DNA of 64,000 nucleotides from Entomospira culicis (GTDB lineage: Bacteria; Spirochaetota; Spirochaetia; WRBN01). Where the stretch lies: the NCBI RefSeq assembly GCF_028748145.1, contig NZ_CP118181.1, forward strand, positions 992,211 through 1,056,210. Direction: 5' to 3'. The position numbers were made by a program, and so were the translations under genes. This document shows positions 1,078 through 42,989 of this stretch, in pieces (position 1 is the stretch's first letter; every line of letters begins with the position of its first letter). The notes beneath the pieces were generated by a model. That model saw only the letters and a list, made by a program, of their open reading frames with translations, ran no database searches and was not told where the DNA came from.

Positions 1078-3622
1078 GACGCGCCTCCTTTTGCAACTTC
1101 GCAAGAAACTGCATCGCCTCCAAGGGCGTCTGTTGCTCAAGGTTAAAGTTGAGAATTTGACTTGATAAGATCTCTTCCTTAGAAAATAACTCTTCTTCTT
1201 TAGGTGAGACATCAACAGAATCTACAACAAAATCCACATCAGAACCCTTCAACCCATCTAGCTGAATAAGATAAGTTTTTGCACGCGCAAGTACGATAGG
1301 CGGAATCCCCGCCATGCGTGCCACATGTAGACCATAGCTTCCTGAAGCAGCACCATCCATAATTTCATTAGTGAAAAAAATCTCTTCGCCATTTTCTATC
1401 ACCCGCAACGAAATATTTTTATATCCAGCGATACGCAATGCCGTCAATTCATGATAATGCGTGGCAAAGAGCGTAAAACTTCGCGTCTTTAGCGCCAAGT
1501 GCTCCAAAATCGCACGGGCAATCGCTAGACCGTCATCGCTACCGGTACCGCGCCCCACCTCATCCACAATCACCAAACTCCGAGAACTTGCATAATGTAA
1601 AATGCGCGCCGTCTCACTCATCTCCACCAAAAAGGTCGACTGTCCTCGAGAGAGATTGTCCGAAGCACCCACCCGACAAAAAATCCGATCACAAATCGGA
1701 ATTTCTGCAGATCTTGCCGGAACAAACATCCCCAAGTGCGCCATATAAACAATCAACGCACTCATTCGTAGATAGGTCGATTTTCCCGCCATATTCGGCC
1801 CCGTAATTAACAGCAATCGATGCTCATCGGCAAAGTGCACATCATTAGCAACAAAAGGGCGCTCGCTATAATGCTCCACAATCGGATGACGCCCACCATC
1901 AATACGTAACAATCCAGACGCCTTCAATTGCGGGCGCACATATTGTCGTTCTATCGCGACATTTGCTAAACTCGAAAAGAGATCAATATCAGCAATCTCT
2001 TGTGCAATTTCTTGCAATGCAGAAAAATACTCCAAAAGATCTTCACGTAGTTGCGCAAATAAGGCTCGCTCCAACTCCACCGCCTCCTCATGGGCGCTAG
2101 CAATGCGTTCCTCTAACTCTTTAAGCTCCATCGTGATATAACGCTCACCACCCACCACCGACTGACGACGAACAAAGCGCGTATCTAGCTTAGCGATATG
2201 CGCCTTATTCACCTCAAAAAACCAGCCCAGTTGACGATTCTCCTTCAAGCGCAAAGGAACACCACAGGCTTCGCGCTCCTGTTGCGCATAGGCTTCTAAG
2301 CGCTCCCGCGAATGCTCTGCCAAATCTCGCAAGCTATCTAGCTTATCATCAAATCCAGCACGAATCACCCCGCCCGACTGAATTTCCGTCGATGGCTCAT
2401 CCATCAGTGTAGAAAAAATCTTGATCGCTAACATTTGCGCAATGGTAGCAAGCTCTGCCTCCATCAACGTAAAATCGCTACGTAACCCACGCATGTTAGC
2501 CACCCGTTGCAGACTCTTCGCCAGCGCAATAAAGTCCTTGGCGTGTGCCTTACTCAACATGATCTTAGTATTCAATCGCTCTAAATCGTAAATCCCTTTA
2601 AGCTCTTCTCGCAAAGGTTTTAACAAATCTGAACTTTGATAAAACTGCTCAATCCGCGCCTGCCTCGCCTGCAAAATCGATAAATTCTGTAACGGAGTAA
2701 CCACCACCTCTCGTAACTTACGCGCCCCCAAGACCGTACAGGTTTGATTCAACACCTTTAATAATGTGTACGCATCACCACCATCTTGCTGGTTATGGGT
2801 GATTTCTAAGTTACGAAAAGAGGAGTGATCCATCCATAGTTGCTCTTCTTGTAAAACCAAACGCAATGAAGAGATATGCACTAACGTATCATTCAGTTGC
2901 CCCTGCAGATAGACCAAAAGTGCTGTGGCAACCCCCAGATAGCGCTCATATGGATTCAGACCAAATCCAGATAAATCGTTGACATGAAAGTGCTTCTGTA
3001 GCAATTTCACCGCATTGGGATTAACAAAGTGCCACTCATCCAAGAGATTCACAATAATCCCTTGCTCTTTACAATAACGCTGAAGCTCAGGAAGCGAACT
3101 CCAGAGTTTCTTTTCCACTGCCATCTCGACAATACCATAGCGATAGAGATACGCAATAACCTGCTCGCTAAGAGTATCCACAAGCGCGTGGGCAAAGAGA
3201 AAATCTCCCCGAGCCACATCCAAAAGTGCCACTGCCAAGTGCTCTTTATATTGATAAAAAGAGATCATATAGTTTGCCTGATTGCTCAATAAAGATGCCC
3301 CACGAGCAACCGCAGTAGCTGGACTAATTACCTCAACAATAGCGCGCTCAGCAATACCTTTTTCTGGTTTATGCACTTGCTCAGCCACCGCAACCTTATA
3401 CCCCAGCTGCACCAGCTTAGCAATATAACTCTCGCTAGCATGATGAGGAACCCCACACATGGGAGTATTACTACGCTGGGTTAATGTTATACCAAGCAAA
3501 TTACTTACTAAAAGCGCATCATCGGCAAAGAGCTCGTAGAAGTCTCCCAATCGAAAGAAAAGCAGAGCATCCCCACTCTTTGCCTTAAGCGTAAAGTATT
3601 GATCTAATAATGCGCCCGCCAT
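1070..3622 (-). CDS. mutS: DNA mismatch repair protein MutS
   Basis: At 850 residues it has the usual length of bacterial MutS, which binds mismatches and signals repair through ATP. The N-terminal mismatch-binding motif GDFYELF (Phe-x-Glu) is present near residue 28. The lever and clamp regions follow, and the C-terminal ATPase has the Walker A TGPNMAGKST, the FLVEMSET segment, Walker B (LVIVDEVGRGTGS) and FATHYHEL. The frame runs straight into an ATG only 2 bases from the skp stop. mutS therefore sits in a bamA-skp-mutS-rluB transcript, mixing envelope assembly and repair genes. No mutL is visible in the window. Confidence 0.98.
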   Translation of the reverse strand: MAGALLDQYFTLKAKSGDALLFFRLGDFYELFADDALLVSNLLGITLTQRSNTPMCGVPHHASESYIAKLVQLGYKVAVAEQVHKPEKGIAERAIVEVISPATAVARGASLLSNQANYMISFYQYKEHLAVALLDVARGDFLFAHALVDTLSEQVIAYLYRYGIVEMAVEKKLWSSLPELQRYCKEQGIIVNLLDEWHFVNPNAVKLLQKHFHVNDLSGFGLNPYERYLGVATALLVYLQGQLNDTLVHISSLRLVLQEEQLWMDHSSFRNLEITHNQQDGGDAYTLLKVLNQTCTVLGARKLREVVVTPLQNLSILQARQARIEQFYQSSDLLKPLREELKGIYDLERLNTKIMLSKAHAKDFIALAKSLQRVANMRGLRSDFTLMEAELATIAQMLAIKIFSTLMDEPSTEIQSGGVIRAGFDDKLDSLRDLAEHSRERLEAYAQQEREACGVPLRLKENRQLGWFFEVNKAHIAKLDTRFVRRQSVVGGERYITMELKELEERIASAHEEAVELERALFAQLREDLLEYFSALQEIAQEIADIDLFSSLANVAIERQYVRPQLKASGLLRIDGGRHPIVEHYSERPFVANDVHFADEHRLLLITGPNMAGKSTYLRMSALIVYMAHLGMFVPARSAEIPICDRIFCRVGASDNLSRGQSTFLVEMSETARILHYASSRSLVIVDEVGRGTGSDDGLAIARAILEHLALKTRSFTLFATHYHELTALRIAGYKNISLRVIENGEEIFFTNEIMDGAASGSYGLHVARMAGIPPIVLARAKTYLIQLDGLKGSDVDFVVDSVDVSPKEEELFSKEEILSSQILNFNLEQQTPLEAMQFLAKLQKEARRE

Positions 3623-6848: not shown

Positions 6849-7837
6849 GAACCCCGTTTAGAAATTTTTAGCGATTGTAAAAGAGTTGTTAGCCATGGCT
6901 CGTTGATGAGAGGGTGTTGGAAAAGCCATTGTGGGTCTACCTCTTGCCCCTGATTATATGCCGTTAGGTGCAAGTGTGGTCCTGTGGCAAAACCCGTTGC
7001 GCCAATGCCACCGACACGTTGACCTCGTCTAACCATCGTACCATCCACCACATCGATCCCGTTCATATGATAATAGAGGCTAAAAAACCCCGGTGCATGC
7101 ATCACGATAACCGTATAGCCAGTAACCACGCGATTTTCTGCCAAAACCACCAATCCATCCGCCACTGCTAAAACATCGCTACCCACGGCAAGTCCACCAA
7201 AATCTTCGCCATTATGAAAATCTCGACTACGGCTCCCATCCGGATAGACAAACTCACGTTGCGCCCCATAGCGAGAGGTATAATACCAACTCTTGCCCGT
7301 TACCGGTAAATCCCAGCGCCCCACATCATACAACGCTTGAGGCTCAAATCGCCCCAACGCCGCATAAAATCGTTTCGCCTGTGCCTGTCGCTCGGCACTC
7401 TGATTACTTATCGCACTCTGTCCCTGCTTACCCATCTGGATCGTCTGATGGCGATAATTTCCGCTCTCCACCTCTAGCTCGTCGCTTCTCAGCACCACTT
7501 CTCGACCATCTTTAAGCGTAAGAGAGACTTCCAATTGATATCTATCTGCAGGCGCTAACGCCGAGATTCCCACCAAAAAGAGATAAATTTCGCGCTTCTT
7601 CGCCTTCTTCACCACATAAGGAAACCCTTGCCCACGCGCCCGTGCTGTTCGTTTTTCGTTAAGCTGGAGAAATGCAAAACTCGCCTTTTCTATCCCGTCA
7701 GTAGGATACACAAAGGCGTTAATCATACCGCCCTGCCGCCAACTGGGCGTATAATAGAGCCGATAATCACTCTTAGCATGCAATTGCACACCACTCAACC
7801 ATGTCAAAAGAAGCATAAATACGATACTACCTTTCAT
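6845..7837 (-). CDS. M23-family (LytM-type) metallopeptidase, secreted
   Basis: The 330-residue exported protein has a signal peptide (MKGSIVFMLLLTWLSGVQLHA). A central beta-rich domain follows, then a C-terminal M23 domain with the zinc ligands in FHNGEDFGG and GPHLHLTAY. M23 enzymes cleave peptide cross-links in peptidoglycan, or act as LytM activators when the metal site is lost; here the ligands look complete. Two starts are possible: the ATG at 7837, used here because it gives a normal signal peptide, and a GTG at 7858 that overlaps the recJ stop codon and would add MSRDYII. Translation may be coupled to recJ. Confidence 0.88.
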   Translation of the reverse strand: MKGSIVFMLLLTWLSGVQLHAKSDYRLYYTPSWRQGGMINAFVYPTDGIEKASFAFLQLNEKRTARARGQGFPYVVKKAKKREIYLFLVGISALAPADRYQLEVSLTLKDGREVVLRSDELEVESGNYRHQTIQMGKQGQSAISNQSAERQAQAKRFYAALGRFEPQALYDVGRWDLPVTGKSWYYTSRYGAQREFVYPDGSRSRDFHNGEDFGGLAVGSDVLAVADGLVVLAENRVVTGYTVIVMHAPGFFSLYYHMNGIDVVDGTMVRRGQRVGGIGATGFATGPHLHLTAYNQGQEVDPQWLFQHPLINEPWLTTLLQSLKISKRGS

Positions 7838-7857: not shown

Positions 7858-10008
7858 CTAAGACTCTTTAAAATCGATAAGCTCCAACTGATACCCATGA
7901 AACCGCCCACTCTCCTTACGTAGCTTACAAAGCACATCCAACTGCATACCAGCGCGAAGCTCGCCAAAGCGATTTGCCTCTTCCCAAAAGAGCGCCTGCC
8001 AGTGCTCCGCCCCAATCGTGATGCCTAACTTAAGATGCTCCTCTCGCCTACCAATAAGCGTCGCACTCTCCAACTTAACGCCAGAAATATAAAAGACCAA
8101 TGGTTCAAATTTTGCCCCATAAGGAGCTAAACGCTCCACCAAGCGAATCACCTCTTGCTGAAAATATGCACTAGGAATTTTCGCATCATACGCTCGGATC
8201 ACTTCAGCATCGTCCACAGCAGGTTTTGTCTCAATTCCCGCTAAAAACGTAGTCAAACGGCGCTTTAACTCATCGATAAGCTCAATTTTAATGGTAAACC
8301 CACCCGCCTGCGTATGCCCACCGGCATCAATAAAGAGATCTTTACAATGTTCAATAAACGGTGCTACATGATAATCAAACGGACTACGCATGCTCGCACT
8401 CGCCGTACCATCCTCTTTGATCGCAATCACTAAAGAGAAGGTGTCATACACCCGCGCCATACGTCCTGCCAAAAGCCCCGTTAGTCCTCGTGGTAAATCC
8501 TTTTGATAGATAAAAATAATCTTCCCTTCATATCTCTCCAAAGAGTCGCGAATTGGTTGCTGTAACTCCTCCCACCACTGCGTGGTTAAATCACGACGCT
8601 GTTCATTAAGCTTAACCAACGCCAAGCTCAACTCCTGCATATCTTTACTCTCGTCAGAAAGCAAGGCATCTAGCGCCACATCGGGGCTACCCATTCGCCC
8701 AGAAGCATTAATCAACGGAATAAATTTCCAATTTAAATCATTGATAGTAATCGTATTATTGAGCAAATGCAAATGAGACAATAACTGATTCAGCTTAGTA
8801 TTCTCGCCACTATTCATCGCGCGTAAACCATGTTGCACAATAATACGATTCTCCCCCAATAACGGCGCCAAATCAGCGAGCAAGCCAATCGTCGCAAGCC
8901 CAAAGTTGCGTTCGTAATGAGGAAAATTATTCGGCTCTGCCAAAAGCAACAGGCGATAAAGCAAGAGCATGCCATCGCGTAATTGAGGTTGATCTTGATA
9001 GCAGAAAAACCTTGAGCGTTTCAGCAAATCCCCTAAGCGATATTGACTAATCCCAGCATAAAAGTGCTCCAATTCACCGGTAAGATCGCGCGCAACCACA
9101 TCTGCCCCCAAGAGCCCGCTCAAGAAGCCAATTTGCTCCTGTGCCCCAAAGACAAAGAGTGCCTGTCCCTGCAAAAAATGCTCCATCTGTTGACGACTCT
9201 GCGCCATCTTCTGCGGATTATCATAAGGGAAAGTTACCTGTAAAACACTCTTAATCTCCATGTTTACCACTTGCAACGCAATGATTTGTGCAGATTGCGC
9301 ATCAATCTGCGCCCCGTACAATAAAATTTCACTACGCTCAAAATAACCCTTCATGTAAAAATCCAACGCAAAGAGCGCCTTTAACACCACCACACTCGCC
9401 GACAATTGACGATTAGGATACTGCTCATTACGCTTAGGGTTGACAAAAGCCACCGCAGGTAACGGATCACTCCCGATATCATGGTGATCGAAAATGATTA
9501 AATCAATCTGCTTGCTTTTAGCAAGATTAGCCGCCTCATATGCGCTCGATCCATTATCCACACAGATAATTAGCGAAACACCCAATGCCTGCGCCTCTAG
9601 CACCAAAGCAGTGGTCAACCCATAGGGCTCATCCCCCTGAGGCAGACGTAGAACAGGCGCAACTCCATAATCTAACAGATAATCAGCCACGAGCGCGGTA
9701 CTGGTAATGCCATCAGCATCACGATCGCCGACAATCATAATCTTCTCGGGATTCACCGCATAAACACGCCCCGCACGCTCTTCCAAATCACCCATCGCTT
9801 GGACAATGCGCTCCACCGCCAAACCCATATCCGGAAGCAAAAAGGGATTGTGCAAAAAGACCTTCTTATCCTCCAAAATATAAAGCGCATCCTGAGGCGC
9901 ATCAAGCCCTCGCCGAACCAAAATGGTTGCGGTCAATTTATCGATATCAAAACGCTGGCTTACCGCACGCACCCGCTCTTTGTCTAGTTCTTTGGTTTGC
10001 CAACTCAC
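7858..10008 (-). CDS. recJ: single-stranded-DNA exonuclease RecJ
   Basis: The 716-residue protein belongs to the DHH phosphoesterase superfamily. The metal-binding motifs are visible: DRDADGITS (motif I), VDNGSS and IIFDHHDIG (the DHH motif), then DLAPLLGENR, and a DHHA1 part with GGHTQAGGF. RecJ degrades ssDNA 5' to 3' in recombination and mismatch repair. The protein is longer than classical RecJ; a middle segment around residues 240-330 looks lineage-specific. The start is a GTG at 10008 that overlaps the TGA of the phosphorylase gene, with AAGGAAA upstream, so the two are probably translationally coupled. Confidence 0.95.
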   Translation of the reverse strand: MSWQTKELDKERVRAVSQRFDIDKLTATILVRRGLDAPQDALYILEDKKVFLHNPFLLPDMGLAVERIVQAMGDLEERAGRVYAVNPEKIMIVGDRDADGITSTALVADYLLDYGVAPVLRLPQGDEPYGLTTALVLEAQALGVSLIICVDNGSSAYEAANLAKSKQIDLIIFDHHDIGSDPLPAVAFVNPKRNEQYPNRQLSASVVVLKALFALDFYMKGYFERSEILLYGAQIDAQSAQIIALQVVNMEIKSVLQVTFPYDNPQKMAQSRQQMEHFLQGQALFVFGAQEQIGFLSGLLGADVVARDLTGELEHFYAGISQYRLGDLLKRSRFFCYQDQPQLRDGMLLLYRLLLLAEPNNFPHYERNFGLATIGLLADLAPLLGENRIIVQHGLRAMNSGENTKLNQLLSHLHLLNNTITINDLNWKFIPLINASGRMGSPDVALDALLSDESKDMQELSLALVKLNEQRRDLTTQWWEELQQPIRDSLERYEGKIIFIYQKDLPRGLTGLLAGRMARVYDTFSLVIAIKEDGTASASMRSPFDYHVAPFIEHCKDLFIDAGGHTQAGGFTIKIELIDELKRRLTTFLAGIETKPAVDDAEVIRAYDAKIPSAYFQQEVIRLVERLAPYGAKFEPLVFYISGVKLESATLIGRREEHLKLGITIGAEHWQALFWEEANRFGELRAGMQLDVLCKLRKESGRFHGYQLELIDFKES

Positions 10009-37922: not shown

Positions 37923-37963
37923 ATACTCTTAGTATAGCACAGGGCGCGCGAAGTGTCAAAGGG
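37923..37963. repeat. 41-bp direct repeat, copy 1 (downstream of vapD)
   Basis: It is identical over 41 bases to the copy at 38236-38276. Both begin ATACTCTTAGTATAGCAC and end GTGTCAAAGGG. On the minus strand it carries TTGACA (37954-37959) and TATACT (37931-37936) at 17-base spacing. The vapD stop codon (37956-37958) lies inside the -35 box. A transcript from this copy would run into the EIIC terminator region and antisense to EIIC. Confidence 0.95.
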
Positions 37964-38237
37964 CGGGAGCGAGATCGTTGTTTTCTTCGATGCGTAGCAT
38001 GCGGATGTCGGTAACCGAGCCTTTAAGCCAAGGGAATTGGGCGCTCATTTTGTTTACCGCCATAACGGTTTTTACCGCGTCGATGCCCTCGTCGCCGAAG
38101 TAGACACTGCCTTGCTGGCGAGTGAAGCCGTGGGTGGCGAGGAAATTTTTTATCTCGGCATAGGCGTTATGATAGGTATTGCCGGGATAGAGGCGCTCTA
38201 AGTCGCTAATTTTTAAATCAAAAGTAATCGCGTACAT
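37956..38237 (-). CDS. vapD: VapD-like protein (Cas2-fold, toxin-type endoribonuclease family)
   Basis: The 93-residue protein begins MYAITFDLKISDLERLY and continues HNAYAEIKNFLATHGFTRQQGSVYFG, then AVNKMSAQFPWLKGSVTDIRMLRIEE. It matches the VapD family in order and length, including the N-terminal Asp of FDLK that is the key acidic residue. VapD has a Cas2-like ferredoxin fold and in some bacteria is an RNA-cleaving toxin. The ATG lies exactly 7 bases after the TATACT -10 box, with no ribosome-binding site, so the mRNA should be leaderless. No VapX-like antitoxin is evident. The gene is bracketed by 41-bp direct repeats. Confidence 0.9.
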   Translation of the reverse strand: MYAITFDLKISDLERLYPGNTYHNAYAEIKNFLATHGFTRQQGSVYFGDEGIDAVKTVMAVNKMSAQFPWLKGSVTDIRMLRIEENNDLAPAL

Positions 38238-38276
38238 ACTCTTAGTATAGCACAGGGCGCGCGAAGTGTCAAAGGG
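38236..38276. repeat. 41-bp direct repeat, copy 2 (upstream of vapD)
   Basis: This is the second identical copy. It carries the promoter of vapD and overlaps the first two bases of its start codon. Recombination between the copies would remove a 313-bp unit containing all of vapD. Confidence 0.95.
38244..38272 (-). promoter_or_regulatory. promoter producing leaderless vapD mRNA
   Basis: On the minus strand TTGACA (38267-38272) and TATACT (38244-38249) are 17 bases apart; the A of the vapD ATG (38237) is at the expected transcription start. Confidence 0.7.
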
Positions 38277-38296: not shown

Positions 38297-39124
38297 CTAC
38301 ACTAGTCGAACATTATCAATACGAGCGATTTGTACACGATATTTTTTAACATGTTTTAATACAACATACAAATCTGCTTCAATCATAGTTCCATCAGGAA
38401 GTCCATTCGTGTATTGCTCCGCAAATACATTATCAACAATAGATGGATGTAATGTTAATGGATGACTCTTTCCCGTCTCATCAACATAATCCCACATCAA
38501 ATGACTACTTACTTTTTCTCCCTTAAAAGCATGAAAAGTCAACATCGTTTTTACATTTATTTTTAAAATCTGCCCCTTATTCTTCTGAGGTAAATATGCT
38601 TGACTTTTAGCATCTACAAAATAATCCCCCACTTTATCTCTTGTAATTACATACACAAGATCGGGATCTTCTGACACTCTTAATTCCATGATATCAACCC
38701 CAAACCGAAAAGCACCCTCAAGCATTCCGTTAAAGTAAATATTGAATTTGGGGTCTATATAAAGGTTCTTAGCCTTTGTATCTTCAGGTAAAAGATTGTC
38801 GCCAAGCATAAAATCTGGTTCTTCTGAAGTGGTTAATTTCCCTTTAATTACTTTAAAAAGAACTCTTAGAGCTTCTTTTAAGACATCGTTTAGCATATCT
38901 CCCGATGCAGCAATCAAAATATCTTGAATAAAAGATCCTCGCCCAAATGGCTTAACACTAAGATCAACTCTCTCTAAAGACAAACAACTTAATCCATTAG
39001 AAAGAAAATTATTAAAATGTACTAATTGTTGACGATAAAAATTGAGGCTAATATTCTGCCTATCTACCTCAACTCCCTTTAACGTGAAACGAATGATCTC
39101 TTGATCCCGATTTGTAGTACCCAT
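38297..39124 (-). CDS. unknown 275-residue protein
   Basis: I do not recognise this protein. It is soluble, without signal peptide or membrane helix, and has a mixed alpha/beta look: RFTLKGVEVDRQNISLNFY at the start, then LSVKPFGRGSFIQDILIAAS, where P-x-x-x-G-S-F-x-x-x-I recalls short motifs in some accessory-region proteins. The end is rich in beta strands (KKYRVQIARIDNVRLV). The ATG at 39124 has GGAGG 7 bases upstream. The gene is more A+T-rich than its housekeeping neighbours and lies between vapD and a restriction-modification gene, so it is probably accessory. Its 5' UTR matches the spacer-like sequence of the CRISPR-repeat RNA directly upstream. Confidence 0.8.
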   Translation of the reverse strand: MGTTNRDQEIIRFTLKGVEVDRQNISLNFYRQQLVHFNNFLSNGLSCLSLERVDLSVKPFGRGSFIQDILIAASGDMLNDVLKEALRVLFKVIKGKLTTSEEPDFMLGDNLLPEDTKAKNLYIDPKFNIYFNGMLEGAFRFGVDIMELRVSEDPDLVYVITRDKVGDYFVDAKSQAYLPQKNKGQILKINVKTMLTFHAFKGEKVSSHLMWDYVDETGKSHPLTLHPSIVDNVFAEQYTNGLPDGTMIEADLYVVLKHVKKYRVQIARIDNVRLV

Positions 39125-39180
39125 GACACTACCTCCATAATTTGTTTTATTCTCCAATACATAAACAGGAGAATACCCTA

Positions 39181-39210
39181 ATTATACTCTATTTAAACGC
39201 TATTTGTCAA
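39181..39210 (-). promoter_or_regulatory. consensus promoter of the unknown 275-residue gene
   Basis: On the minus strand TTGACA (39205-39210) and perfect TATAAT (39181-39186) are 18 bases apart; the start codon is 57 bases downstream. The spacer-matching sequence (39129-39162) lies in this 5' UTR and covers the ribosome-binding site. Confidence 0.7.
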
Positions 39211-39220
39211 GCGATAACAA

Positions 39221-39247
39221 TAAAAAAGGCAATCAAAATGATTGCCT
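39221..39247 (-). terminator. intrinsic terminator, 33 bases after the CRISPR repeat
   Basis: On the minus strand AGGCAATCA pairs perfectly with TGATTGCCT around a 3-base loop and is followed by TTTTTT. It separates the CRISPR-repeat RNA and the restriction-modification gene from the next promoter. Confidence 0.85.
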
Positions 39248-39280
39248 CGTAAAAAAGATGTTGTTTATACTCCAATACAT

Positions 39281-39312
39281 GTTTCAATTCATGCCCTCGC
39301 GCGGAGGGCAAC
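39281..39312 (-). CRISPR. solitary type I-C-like CRISPR repeat
   Basis: On the minus strand the 32-base unit starts GTTGCCCTCC, has a palindromic centre (GCCCTC-CGCGC-GAGGGC) and ends ATGAATTGAAAC. Length, stem and 3' end agree with type I-C repeats. No second copy occurs within the intergenic region and no cas gene is in the window, so this is not a normal array. Confidence 0.65.
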
Positions 39313-39378
39313 AATTGTATTCATTTACGTTCCAGTGCACATTTTGGAGTAAAAACCAAATACACTTTTCTAAACCAC

Positions 39379-39408
39379 AGCATACCACAACTCACAATAA
39401 AAAATCAA
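39379..39408 (-). promoter_or_regulatory. promoter candidate for the CRISPR-repeat RNA
   Basis: On the minus strand TTGATT (39403-39408) and TATGCT (39379-39384) are 18 bases apart. The predicted transcript starts near 39372, about 60 bases before the repeat. Confidence 0.4.
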
Positions 39409-39425: not shown

Positions 39426-42400
39426 TTACTCCTTGGTGGGTTTGGGCGTGGCGCGCACAAGGGCGATCTGATCATCGGTTAAGCCATAGAGGGCAAAGAT
39501 GTAGGCATCCAGCTCTTGCTCTAAGGCGCGTGATGAGGTGAGGGCCTGCTTGGCGGCGATAATCTGATCGACCAGAGCAACCACGTGCGCCTCTTGTGCT
39601 GGCGTGGGCTCGATGATGGGGATGCGTGATGTTAGTGGATTATCAAACTGAATGGTACGAATCGCTTTACCTACAATAAAATTATAAACATACCAATTAA
39701 TAAGAGTTGAGTTGAGTAATCCTACTAGATATTTAGAATTTAAATAACTTATGTTTTTCAATTGATTTATCGTATCTACGATTACGTAATCTTCGAGATT
39801 AGGCAAAATATCTACACTTGTTGCCATAATTTTTAACTGTGGGTATGGCTTGGTGATGTGAGCAACAATGCGTTGCACGAGGATTGCATTTGGGTGCAAG
39901 ATAAATGACTCATTTTGAGCAACAATTTCTTGACTCATGTACCCCTTAATACGATCTTTAATGCCATAACGCTCTAGCTCTTTACCGCCTAATACCTTAA
40001 ATCTATCTTCGTGTTGCGTTGTATGCTTTTGTAACGGCGCACCCCTCTTGTTAGTCACAAAGTCATTCAGCACTTTATGACTAGATTTTATCTTAGTACC
40101 CAACTCTATTGTATTTGCCTCGATATTATTTAAGAAAAAGCCAAAGGACTCAACATTTTTTTTATCTATAGGAGTGGGTAAAAAGACCGTTTCCTCTTCT
40201 GATAAAGAGCCTGTATGATAAGAAGTTGGTGTATTTTTGTTATCATATAGATAGACAACCATTTCTAGCTTCACCACCTTCCATACCTTGCCACAATCAT
40301 ATAGTTTTGTTAAATTGGGTAGGATAATTTCTCGTATTCTCGCCCAATTCGAAGCATAAGTTAACGCCTTAGGAACAATAAATCCCCCTTTGCCATTATC
40401 CTTGATTAATCTCTTCATTAAGAGCATAAAGAGTACCGCAGTATCAGTATTATTGATACCATAAAACCGACCAAAAAATTTTCTCTCCGTTGGCGTTAAA
40501 CTCACTCCATACGGTGGGTTGCCTACCACCACATCAAACCCAACAAACGCTCCGCTCTTCTTGTCCAAGCTCTCCGGAAAGAGGTAGCGCCACTCAATAT
40601 CGGCGGGTTTTTGCTCACTGGTCATGCCAAAGAGGATAGGAAATTCTTCCTTTTTCATCTTGGCAATCGCCTTATCTAGCGCTTTACGGTCTTTCGCACT
40701 ACGGGTTTTGATATAGTCATGATGCAGTTGGGTATAACGCTTAATCACCTCGGGTAAGTTGCTTGTTAGTAAGTCATTATCATCTTGCTTATCCTCTAAA
40801 CTAATATGATATAACAAGCTATTGCCCGTTTTAATATTAATGTCGATATTAGGTAGCGTCGCCATCGGCACGTACTCCCGCGTGCTTTTCAGCCTATCCA
40901 GGCTCGCCAACTCCTTCGTTGCATCCATGATATAATAGCTATTCTTCAACAGCTCAATCCACAACCGCAGCCGACATATCTCCACACTATTGGGGTTAAT
41001 GTCCACCCCAAAGAGGTTATGCTCAATGATCTCTACTTTGGCATGGAAGAGCTCTTCTTGAAAGCTTTGTGTATGGCTATCGTACACCGTATAGTGCAGG
41101 GGTTTTTTCGTTGCGCTATTGAGGATCATAATTTCGTCGTTAAGCACCGATAGCGTTAAGCCATCTTTGGGGTGGATATGATCAAACATCATAAAGTCAT
41201 AGCGGATACTAATCAGCTCATTCAGCGCCGAGACCAAAAAGTGTCCCGATCCCACCGCAGGATCTAGCACCGTCAAGCTACGAATAATGCCGTGGAGTTG
41301 CTTCTCCTCCTCCTCATCCATCTTCTTAAAGGCTTTTTTTAACGCGCTATAATCCGCAAAGTTCTCTTGCATTTCGGCATTCACCCGACCCACCAAGGCT
41401 TCTTGCATGCTCTCTTTACAAATATACGTGGTGATAAAGCTTGGCGTATAAAACGATCCGTCCTTATACCCGTTAAGCTTCTCAAAGACATTGCCTAACA
41501 CGCTGGCATTAATCAGCCTACTCTCGATACCTTGCACCTTACTTTTGCCATCGGTCGTAAAGCTGTAGGCGCTCAAGAACTTTAAGAGGTACTCCAGCAA
41601 CGGCATCTCCTTAACGCCCTCGTACGCCAACACCGATCCATGATCCCCTTTATACAACGCTAAAGGTTCATTGTCTAGCGTGGAGATCTCGTCCAAAATA
41701 ATGCCATAAGCATCCTCTTCGTCCTCTCGATAAATCAGATCCACCCGTTTCATAAAGAGCGAGCTATTGAGATACGGGATATGCGTAAACGCACTCTTGA
41801 TCCGCTCTTCGCGATGCTCTGGTTCTTGCGCCAACACCTGAAAAAAGAGATAATCCAAATCGCTCCAACTACCAATCGTCTCCGGATGATACGCCATAAA
41901 GGCGTAGTTCACCCGATTGCTCCCACTAGGATTCGATCGCACATTGACCAAGTGCGCCTCAAAGAGCTTCAAAAAGAGAATGCGGTTAATCCAGACGATT
42001 AAAACTTGAAAGGCCAGCTCATGGATCTCTTCGGTTGGCTTGACTCTAAATTTCTTCCTCAAGATATTGTAATATATCGAGTTCACCGCATCAGGGTTTG
42101 GCACGATAATCTTCATCTTCGCGCCATCGCTCTCCTTCTTTGCCTTCTCATCCACCTGCATCTCGACCTCTTTTAGCCCCATAACATGCAGCAGCTCATG
42201 ATAAAATTTTGCATTGAGGCTATTAGCATCCAAATACGCGCTATGCCCCAGCCAAACAGGTGCAGAAAAAAAGTGATAGAGCACATTCCACTTCTCATCT
42301 TCAAGCGCCTCGATATCGTCGATGGGGTTCAAATCCAGCAGGTAGCACTTCTCTTTAAAGTGCTCTACACCAACTTCCGTAATGTAATCCTCGATAATAG

Positions 42401-42989
42401 GATAATTCTCTTGGCTGCTCTTAATGTCGCTCTGAACCTTCGCCAAATTTGTCTTAACACCATTATACGTAAAGGATTGCGTAACTAACGCGTAAAAATG
42501 TTCTTCTTTCCACACCAGCCACGTAAAGCCATTACTAATCATCACCTGTTTAATGGACATACTTCGCTGAAACGTGGGGGTGGTCTTCTTATCCTTAATG
42601 ATTTCATTTAAGTAATAATAGATAAGTTGTTGCAACGCCTTCTTATTGAGATCTGCTAAAGAGACCATCTCCGATGTCTTGACTTTCTTACACTCAAGCA
42701 ACGTAACCAGCGCATCACTACTATTCTTAACGATGAGGTCATAATTATCGCCTTTATTAAGGTCTAACTTACCGCCAAGCTCTTTGATAGGTTGCGCCAT
42801 TAACTCTTGTATGGCATGCTCCACCGAACTTTCCGATAGCTTCTCTGCTTTGATTCTCACAATCTCTCGATGATAGGCCTTAAATCGCTTTAAGAAAGCA
42901 TCTCTATCTACCGACTCAATCGCGCTATCCAACCAAGTTTGCCCTAAAAAATCTCTCAACGACTCCACACTAAACAGTTGATTACTCAT
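39426..42989 (-). CDS. type IIG restriction-modification enzyme (Eco57I-like)
   Basis: The 1187-residue single-chain enzyme should both cut and methylate DNA. The N-terminal nuclease shows Asp84 (YDLIVKN) and Glu99-x-Lys101 (LLECKKV), a PD-(D/E)xK pattern. The adenine methyltransferase has motif I LDPAVGSGHFLVSAL near residue 575, FGVDINPNSVEICRLRLWIELL, and the catalytic NPPY (DVVVGNPPYGVSL) near 823. The C-terminal part (about 1000-1187) is the target-recognition domain. TLTSRIPIIEPTPAQEAHVVALVDQIIAAKQAL at its end is typical of such subunits. AAGGA precedes the ATG and a strong promoter lies at 43024-43053. It appears intact. Confidence 0.93.
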   Translation of the reverse strand: MSNQLFSVESLRDFLGQTWLDSAIESVDRDAFLKRFKAYHREIVRIKAEKLSESSVEHAIQELMAQPIKELGGKLDLNKGDNYDLIVKNSSDALVTLLECKKVKTSEMVSLADLNKKALQQLIYYYLNEIIKDKKTTPTFQRSMSIKQVMISNGFTWLVWKEEHFYALVTQSFTYNGVKTNLAKVQSDIKSSQENYPIIEDYITEVGVEHFKEKCYLLDLNPIDDIEALEDEKWNVLYHFFSAPVWLGHSAYLDANSLNAKFYHELLHVMGLKEVEMQVDEKAKKESDGAKMKIIVPNPDAVNSIYYNILRKKFRVKPTEEIHELAFQVLIVWINRILFLKLFEAHLVNVRSNPSGSNRVNYAFMAYHPETIGSWSDLDYLFFQVLAQEPEHREERIKSAFTHIPYLNSSLFMKRVDLIYREDEEDAYGIILDEISTLDNEPLALYKGDHGSVLAYEGVKEMPLLEYLLKFLSAYSFTTDGKSKVQGIESRLINASVLGNVFEKLNGYKDGSFYTPSFITTYICKESMQEALVGRVNAEMQENFADYSALKKAFKKMDEEEEKQLHGIIRSLTVLDPAVGSGHFLVSALNELISIRYDFMMFDHIHPKDGLTLSVLNDEIMILNSATKKPLHYTVYDSHTQSFQEELFHAKVEIIEHNLFGVDINPNSVEICRLRLWIELLKNSYYIMDATKELASLDRLKSTREYVPMATLPNIDINIKTGNSLLYHISLEDKQDDNDLLTSNLPEVIKRYTQLHHDYIKTRSAKDRKALDKAIAKMKKEEFPILFGMTSEQKPADIEWRYLFPESLDKKSGAFVGFDVVVGNPPYGVSLTPTERKFFGRFYGINNTDTAVLFMLLMKRLIKDNGKGGFIVPKALTYASNWARIREIILPNLTKLYDCGKVWKVVKLEMVVYLYDNKNTPTSYHTGSLSEEETVFLPTPIDKKNVESFGFFLNNIEANTIELGTKIKSSHKVLNDFVTNKRGAPLQKHTTQHEDRFKVLGGKELERYGIKDRIKGYMSQEIVAQNESFILHPNAILVQRIVAHITKPYPQLKIMATSVDILPNLEDYVIVDTINQLKNISYLNSKYLVGLLNSTLINWYVYNFIVGKAIRTIQFDNPLTSRIPIIEPTPAQEAHVVALVDQIIAAKQALTSSRALEQELDAYIFALYGLTDDQIALVRATPKPTKE

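Follow-up and report, generated by a model that had tools for sequence, protein, structure and literature searches.

The window analysed here, a stretch of 64,000 nucleotides from the chromosome of Entomospira culicis BR149 (contig NZ_CP118181.1, positions 992,211 to 1,056,210), very probably contains a CreA-like guide-RNA gene and, next to it, a gene that would be silenced through the type I-C Cascade of the host. An initial annotation, made by a model from the letters of the window, had proposed a crRNA-guided regulator of the Cascade type at this place. This idea is supported by the lone repeat itself, the unique match of its guide, the cas locus of the host and a paralogous module on the plasmid p28.

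Structure of the proposed guide-RNA gene

The putative guide-RNA gene is located on the minus strand and is composed of three elements. An ectopic type I-C CRISPR repeat of 32 bases (GTTGCCCTCCGCGCGAGGGCATGAATTGAAAC; 39281-39312) is followed by a spacer-like guide of 33 nt (ATGTATTGGAGTATAAACAACATCTTTTTTACG; 39248-39280), in line with the initial annotation. The repeat has one mismatch to the repeat of the 113-copy host array (31/32 identity), and this single change is a loop base; the stem and the last 11 bases, which are expected to form the Cas5d handle, are intact. The place where a second repeat would stand is occupied by an intrinsic terminator hairpin with 10 pairs and a T-run (39226-39248, minus strand), and the hairpin proposed behind the guide is thereby confirmed. 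The promoter proposed for the RNA (39379-39408, minus strand) is present in the sequence as TTGATT-18-TATGCT, but with only a weak consensus that falls under the cut-off of our promoter scan, and it is regarded here as putative. Directly upstream of the module lies a type IIG restriction-methyltransferase gene (39426-42989, minus strand); a MmeI-type gene takes the same place on p28.

The RNA expected from this module would start with the handle TGAATTGAAAC, continue with ATGTATTGGAG and end at the terminator, and the small RNA would carry ATGTATTGG as its guide. A search against Rfam gave nothing above threshold, and a covariance model of the RNA was set aside owing to its poor structure. The guide segment 39258-39275 can pair with the leader segment 39344-39361 of the same RNA (18 nt, 83%), and folding of the whole RNA yields z = -5. 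This guide-leader pairing in the whole-RNA fold counts against the CreA-like reading.

The guide matches the 5' UTR of the neighboring gene

The guide target (39139-39162, minus strand) is located just downstream of the perfect promoter of a gene for 275 residues and covers about +12 to +35 relative to the predicted transcription start. Guide positions 1-11, 13-17, 20, 22, and 23 match this 5' UTR, whereas positions 12, 18, 19, 21, and 24 do not. The agreement of 16 of the first 17 positions reported by the initial annotation is reproduced, and the sole mismatch among them is the flipped-out position 12; its list of mismatches holds apart from position 23, which matches. With positions 6 and 12 left out, a target within 500 nt agrees with the guide at 15/15 positions between 1 and 17. 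Neither the 112 array spacers nor 1000 dinucleotide-shuffled versions of the guide exceed 13/15 in this comparison. The pattern ATGTANTGGAGNATAAANNA has just two perfect occurrences in the 1.77-Mb genome, namely the guide and the target site, and the next-best places have 2 mismatches. According to this whole-genome search the guide fits the 275-residue gene only, and a cas promoter is not its target.

The trinucleotide TTT noted on the PAM side of the target is present (39163-39165). The target had further been said to cover the ribosome-binding site; the main pairing part (39139-39162) does not extend so far, whereas a Cascade footprint of ~35-40 bp would. One spacer of the host array (spacer 30) also agrees at 10/10 seed positions with a site next to TAT in the promoter region of the 275-residue gene, which is taken as chance because 112 spacers were examined.

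The proposed cargo gene

The cargo gene that the module would guard (38297-39124, minus strand) encodes a predicted soluble protein of 275 residues and has a GC content of 34%, compared with 46% for the window. Its promoter, TTGACA-18-TATAAT (39181-39210, minus strand), agrees with the consensus at 12/12 positions and was absent from the initial annotation. The open reading frame exceeds what chance would give, with 293 stop-free codons versus at most 141 in shuffles. No convincing homologue of the protein was found in Pfam, NCBIfam, PADLOC, PHROGs, and PDB sequences, nor in phages, plasmids, viral contigs, and 393 Spirochaetota genomes, nor in 84,980 species genomes searched by exact peptide patterns, which reach close relatives only. 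A KilA-N domain is absent from the protein, as judged by Pfam, and an AlphaFold model built without homologues has a pLDDT of 34 and was left unused.

By analogy with CrePA, the product would most likely arrest growth or act as a second line of defence, although toxicity is not arguable from its family because the cargo has no relatives. Within the preferred reading, a sub-question rather than a full rival is whether the Cascade-dependent regulator guards a non-toxic cargo, namely a regulated defence or accessory gene, to which we give somewhat less than an even chance. The 275-residue ORFan is devoid of toxin features, the cargo on p28 is a zinc ribbon (PF07295), both modules adjoin restriction-modification genes, and the cas gene region of the same genome seems likewise controlled, all of which would suit such a cargo. 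However, a very strong CRISPR-repressed promoter beside defence genes is the published layout of the CreT and CreP toxins.

Two identical 41-nt direct repeats (37923-37963 and 38236-38276) flank a vapD-like gene (37956-38237) in the window. Each copy carries a TTGACA-17-TATACT promoter, and the upstream copy would yield a nearly leaderless vapD mRNA.

The type I-C system of the host

The genome of E. culicis, a mosquito-associated spirochaete, comprises 1.77 Mb in four contigs. A search of this genome for a type I-C cas operon and for arrays with the same repeat had been suggested along with the initial annotation, and both are found. The cas locus is complete, with Cas3, Cas5d, Cas8c (Csd1), Cas7, Cas4, Cas1, and Cas2 (the first four at C1:575959-582311), and the cognate type I effector genes are present in the same cell as the window module. 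The array contains 113 repeats, starts at C1:584953 downstream of the cas genes, and is ~450 kb away from the window.

No protospacer that would reveal the PAM of the E. culicis Cascade was matched when the array spacers were compared with phages, plasmids, the plasmids of the same genome, the prophage, and related viral contigs. The PAM-side bases are TTT in the window, TTT at a site in the cas locus, TTA on p28, and CTT in a genome of a sister genus, while TTC stands beside the targets in the other type I-C cases described below. The presence of TTT or TTA rather than TTC beside the targets is the main weakness of our reading.

Between cas7 and cas4 there is a small open reading frame of 93 residues (L012:10376-10657), rich in Cys and His and without a Pfam match, which resembles another one at L012:1186-1614.

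A paralogous module on plasmid p28

A second lone repeat, GTTGCACTCAACACGAGAGCATGAATTGAAAC, was first met in a search with the host array and is located on the plasmid p28 (contig C3, identical letter by letter with NZ_CP118187.1). Here, a MmeI-type restriction-methyltransferase gene is followed by the lone repeat and its guide. A terminator almost identical to that of the window module comes next, then a promoter and, missing from the annotation, a gene for a 46-residue zinc-ribbon protein (PF07295). The RNA genes of p28 and of the window are homologous (BLASTN, 80% over 91 nt, E 4e-12), and conservation extends from the repeat to the guide and the terminator, whereas the genes 3' of the two RNA genes are not homologous.

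The guide on p28 matches the -10 region and the start of the zinc-ribbon gene at 22/24 positions, while the best among 500 shuffles of this guide reaches 18/24, and no second place in the genome fits when up to 3 mismatches are allowed. A seed mismatch of guide and target at position 10 and a mismatch in the stem of the p28 repeat count against the CreA-like reading. The co-variation of guide and target that the initial annotation had named as a check is observed between the two modules. Their guides differ at positions 4, 8, and 17, and these differences are mirrored identically in the targets; for positions 10, 21, and 24, compensation is not seen in both modules. The guides pair better with their own targets (19/24 in the window, 22/24 on p28) than with the target of the other module (18/24 and 16/24, respectively).

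The two targets also differ in orientation: the window target runs in the direction of its gene and the p28 target against it, which makes the p28 guide antisense to the transcript of the gene it would guard. An RNA-RNA mechanism could therefore serve the p28 module only, whereas DNA as the target serves both. The earlier proposal that the RNA acts on DNA and not on the mRNA is strengthened by this arrangement.

Plasmid p28 is abundant in defence-type genes, which include the MmeI-type enzyme, three DUF262 proteins, an Abi family protein, RelE/RelB, and HicA.

Solitary repeats of a prophage and alternative readings

The same genome has a prophage-like region (L037, G000:C1:768000-783000) with RecT, a RecE-like exonuclease, and replication genes. 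It contains three solitary CRISPR repeats, short or near-complete, at positions 7486-7517 (-), 8444-8468 (+), and 3116-3141 (+) of the region. Two of them have shortened hairpins (GTTGCCCTATGGCATGAATTGAAAC and GTTGCCCTACGGGCATGAATTGAAAC), and the repeat at 8444 is located directly 3' of a perfect TTGACA-17-TATAAT promoter and is antisense to the phage genes. No seed match was detected in the local surroundings of these repeats, and a search of IMG/VR for related phages with the repeat returned unrelated chance matches only. The prophage repeats are candidate RNA anti-CRISPRs of the Racr kind, as judged from their sequence, and the comparison of the guided modules with these unguided repeats is an internal control within one genome.

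Solitary repeats of phages and plasmids are often Racrs (PMC10651486), and the window module could itself be one, that is, a decoy for Cas proteins contributed by a mobile element, whose guide-target match would be incidental. The three prophage repeats and the plasmid paralogue of the module speak for this explanation, which we nevertheless regard as improbable: the prophage repeats are without a local seed match, whereas the matches of the window and p28 modules are unique, co-vary and lie at the promoter of the neighboring gene, and in both modules guide and terminator are kept together with the repeat. The window module resembles a Racr (PMC10651486) in its solitary repeat and its association with mobile DNA, but a Racr has no guide-dependent target. 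A target is present in the window, and it is the prophage repeats that fit the Racr definition, a solitary phage or plasmid repeat that lacks array and target.

A riboregulator that acts by antisense pairing with the mRNA, independently of Cascade, would agree with the short RNA, the terminator at its end, and the antisense orientation of the p28 guide. It is very unlikely, however, as the window guide is of mRNA sense and so has no way to pair with the message, DNA is the only target common to both paralogues, and a repeat one base off the host CRISPR repeat would be left unexplained. It is equally hard to credit that the single repeat is debris of an array and the short 17-nt direct repeat a local duplication, since the similarity begins exactly at guide position 1 and ends at the edge of the repeat, on p28 the paralogue is matched to a separate target in inverted orientation, and the window match exceeds all shuffles.

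Proposed mechanism of the guided module

For the Cascade-guiding reading of the window module we infer transcription, processing, binding, and repression, as well as the nature of the cargo. The RNA with repeat, 33-nt guide, and terminator hairpin would be transcribed on its own. In type I-C systems Cas5d processes the precursor to leave an 11-nt handle, and the host Cas5d would cut this RNA in the same way. The processed RNA would be loaded into the type I-C Cascade (Cas5-Cas8c-Cas7), and its partial match (positions 1-11, 13-17, and a few more) would guide the complex to the DNA downstream of the strong promoter. With a predicted start at ~39174, Cascade would sit from about +9, collide with RNA polymerase and block transcription, while the match would be too short for destruction of the DNA by Cas3. 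Once Cascade is lost, or inhibited by protein or RNA anti-CRISPRs, the 275-residue gene would be switched on.

We see an even chance that such modules are mobile, cas-unlinked cassettes guarded by CRISPR. In such a cassette, a guide-RNA gene that travels next to restriction-modification genes, chromosomal or plasmid-borne, would borrow the host type I-C Cascade and re-evolve its guide for the adjoining cargo, so that loss or inhibition of Cascade would free several effectors per cell and tie the plasmid to CRISPR-positive hosts. If true, Cascade would be a trans-acting repressor of multiple genes and an alarm for anti-CRISPRs, and the prophage with its candidate RNA anti-CRISPRs in the same genome is the kind of threat that such a module would sense.

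Comparison with CrePA, CreTA, and related modules

The CrePA system was reportedly described by Shu et al. in Nat Chem Biol. In this system the protein toxin CreP is repressed by the CreA RNA together with the CRISPR effector, as outlined in a review (PMC12737573). In CrePA as in the window module, a crRNA-like RNA partially matches the promoter region of a neighboring protein gene and would need the host effector. CreP typically has a KilA-N domain, whereas the cargo here is a 275-residue ORFan or a 46-residue zinc ribbon, and the present modules belong to type I-C, are far from cas and in one case reside on a plasmid.

For CreA, pairing at positions 1-5 and 7-11 is sufficient, and Cascade with such limited seed pairing represses without cleavage (PMC8501985). 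The same pairing, with positions 6 and 12 free, is seen in the window module, which in addition resembles CreTA (PMC8501985, PMC9458426) in the one-repeat form with a terminator. That form is known from the creA of Haloarcula hispanica (PMC8501985). The initial annotation had presented the module as an unrecognised type I-C member of the CreA and CreR idea, and this membership is supported; the terminator hairpin that it noted instead of a second repeat, however, had already been described. CreT is a small toxic RNA, whereas the cargo of the window module is a 275-codon open reading frame that does not share the CreT features (small RNA, rare codons, and a strong ribosome-binding site). Moreover, CreTA repeats are strongly degenerated whereas the window repeat is one base off, and CreTA modules are described as specific to physically linked cas loci whereas the window module is unlinked. 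The Cascade-repressed toxin of the type I-E system of C. rodentium (PMC12055562) likewise combines an ORFan cargo, a strong promoter, and an adjoining RNA that is repeat-like and spacer-like; it differs in being a 96-bp open reading frame of a type I-E system within the cas locus.

On its sequence, the window module appears to act in the manner of CreA paired with CreP or CreT; their defining sequence features are present apart from the PAM, where TTT is found, and the cargo may be toxic. Ectopic-repeat guides as such (CreTA, CreR, CrePA) and the terminator replacing the second repeat (PMC8501985) are already known. The paper on CreTA specificity does not mention type I-C, and as far as this paper and a review that covers CreR show, the guided type I-C modules distant from cas, the plasmid paralogue, and the swapping of cargo accompanied by co-variation of guide and target are new. 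The CRISPR-repressed modules in the literature belong to cas loci or their immediate neighborhood; the two paralogues of this cell are located elsewhere, one of them on a plasmid, and differ in cargo. A simple computational rule, namely a lone repeat with a match of positions 1-5 and 7-11 to a nearby promoter, would lead to new toxins and defence genes, including ORFans that offer no other clue.

Lone repeats beside other type I-C loci

CreR, the RNA that represses cas genes, was reportedly described by Liu et al. in 2023, a study cited in PMC13131331, and a review lists types I-B, I-E, and V-A for CreR. The window module differs from CreR in that it does not target cas genes; CreR-like features are seen in a lone repeat before cas5 of the same genome and in five in other type I-C loci. 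The former, between cas3 and cas5 (C1:578454-578485, L012:6454-6485), is a perfect repeat followed by a guide and a hairpin. Its guide matches at positions 1-5 and 7-16 with a miss at position 6, which leaves 10/10 seed positions paired, and the target (L012:6555) is located ~55 bp upstream of the -35 element of cas5, beside TTT. We regard this lone repeat as a candidate type I-C CreR.

Similar lone repeats with seed matches, a further check on the initial annotation, are present in a sister genus and in other type I-C loci. In the genome from the sister genus of the same family, cas1 and cas2 of the type I-C locus are separated by a mini-array of two repeats (L048:17388-18960). The guide of this mini-array agrees with its target at every pairing position as far as 17 (15/15), the misses fall precisely on positions 6 and 12, and the match is equalled by 0/300 shuffles. 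The target abuts the promoter of a DUF2130 gene whose reading frame is now broken into three, possibly an inactivated CreP-like cargo or the result of assembly errors.

In addition, 80 further type I-C loci, taken from GTDB genomes, were scanned for repeats with a hairpin plus TTGAAAC outside arrays, which yielded 23 lone repeat-like sites. A full match of positions 1-5 and 7-11 within 300 nt is found for 6/23, and 5 of these 6 are beside TTC; shuffled guides give 0.015 full matches per survey and 0.000 beside TTC. The five TTC-side cases are from Desulfoluna, Sphingomonas, Sporomusa, and two Paenibacillus (L062, L084, L096, L112, and L119). The seed-matching lone repeats of the survey are mostly located before cas3, several with a terminator-like hairpin 3' of the guide, and judged by these features they look like type I-C CreR.
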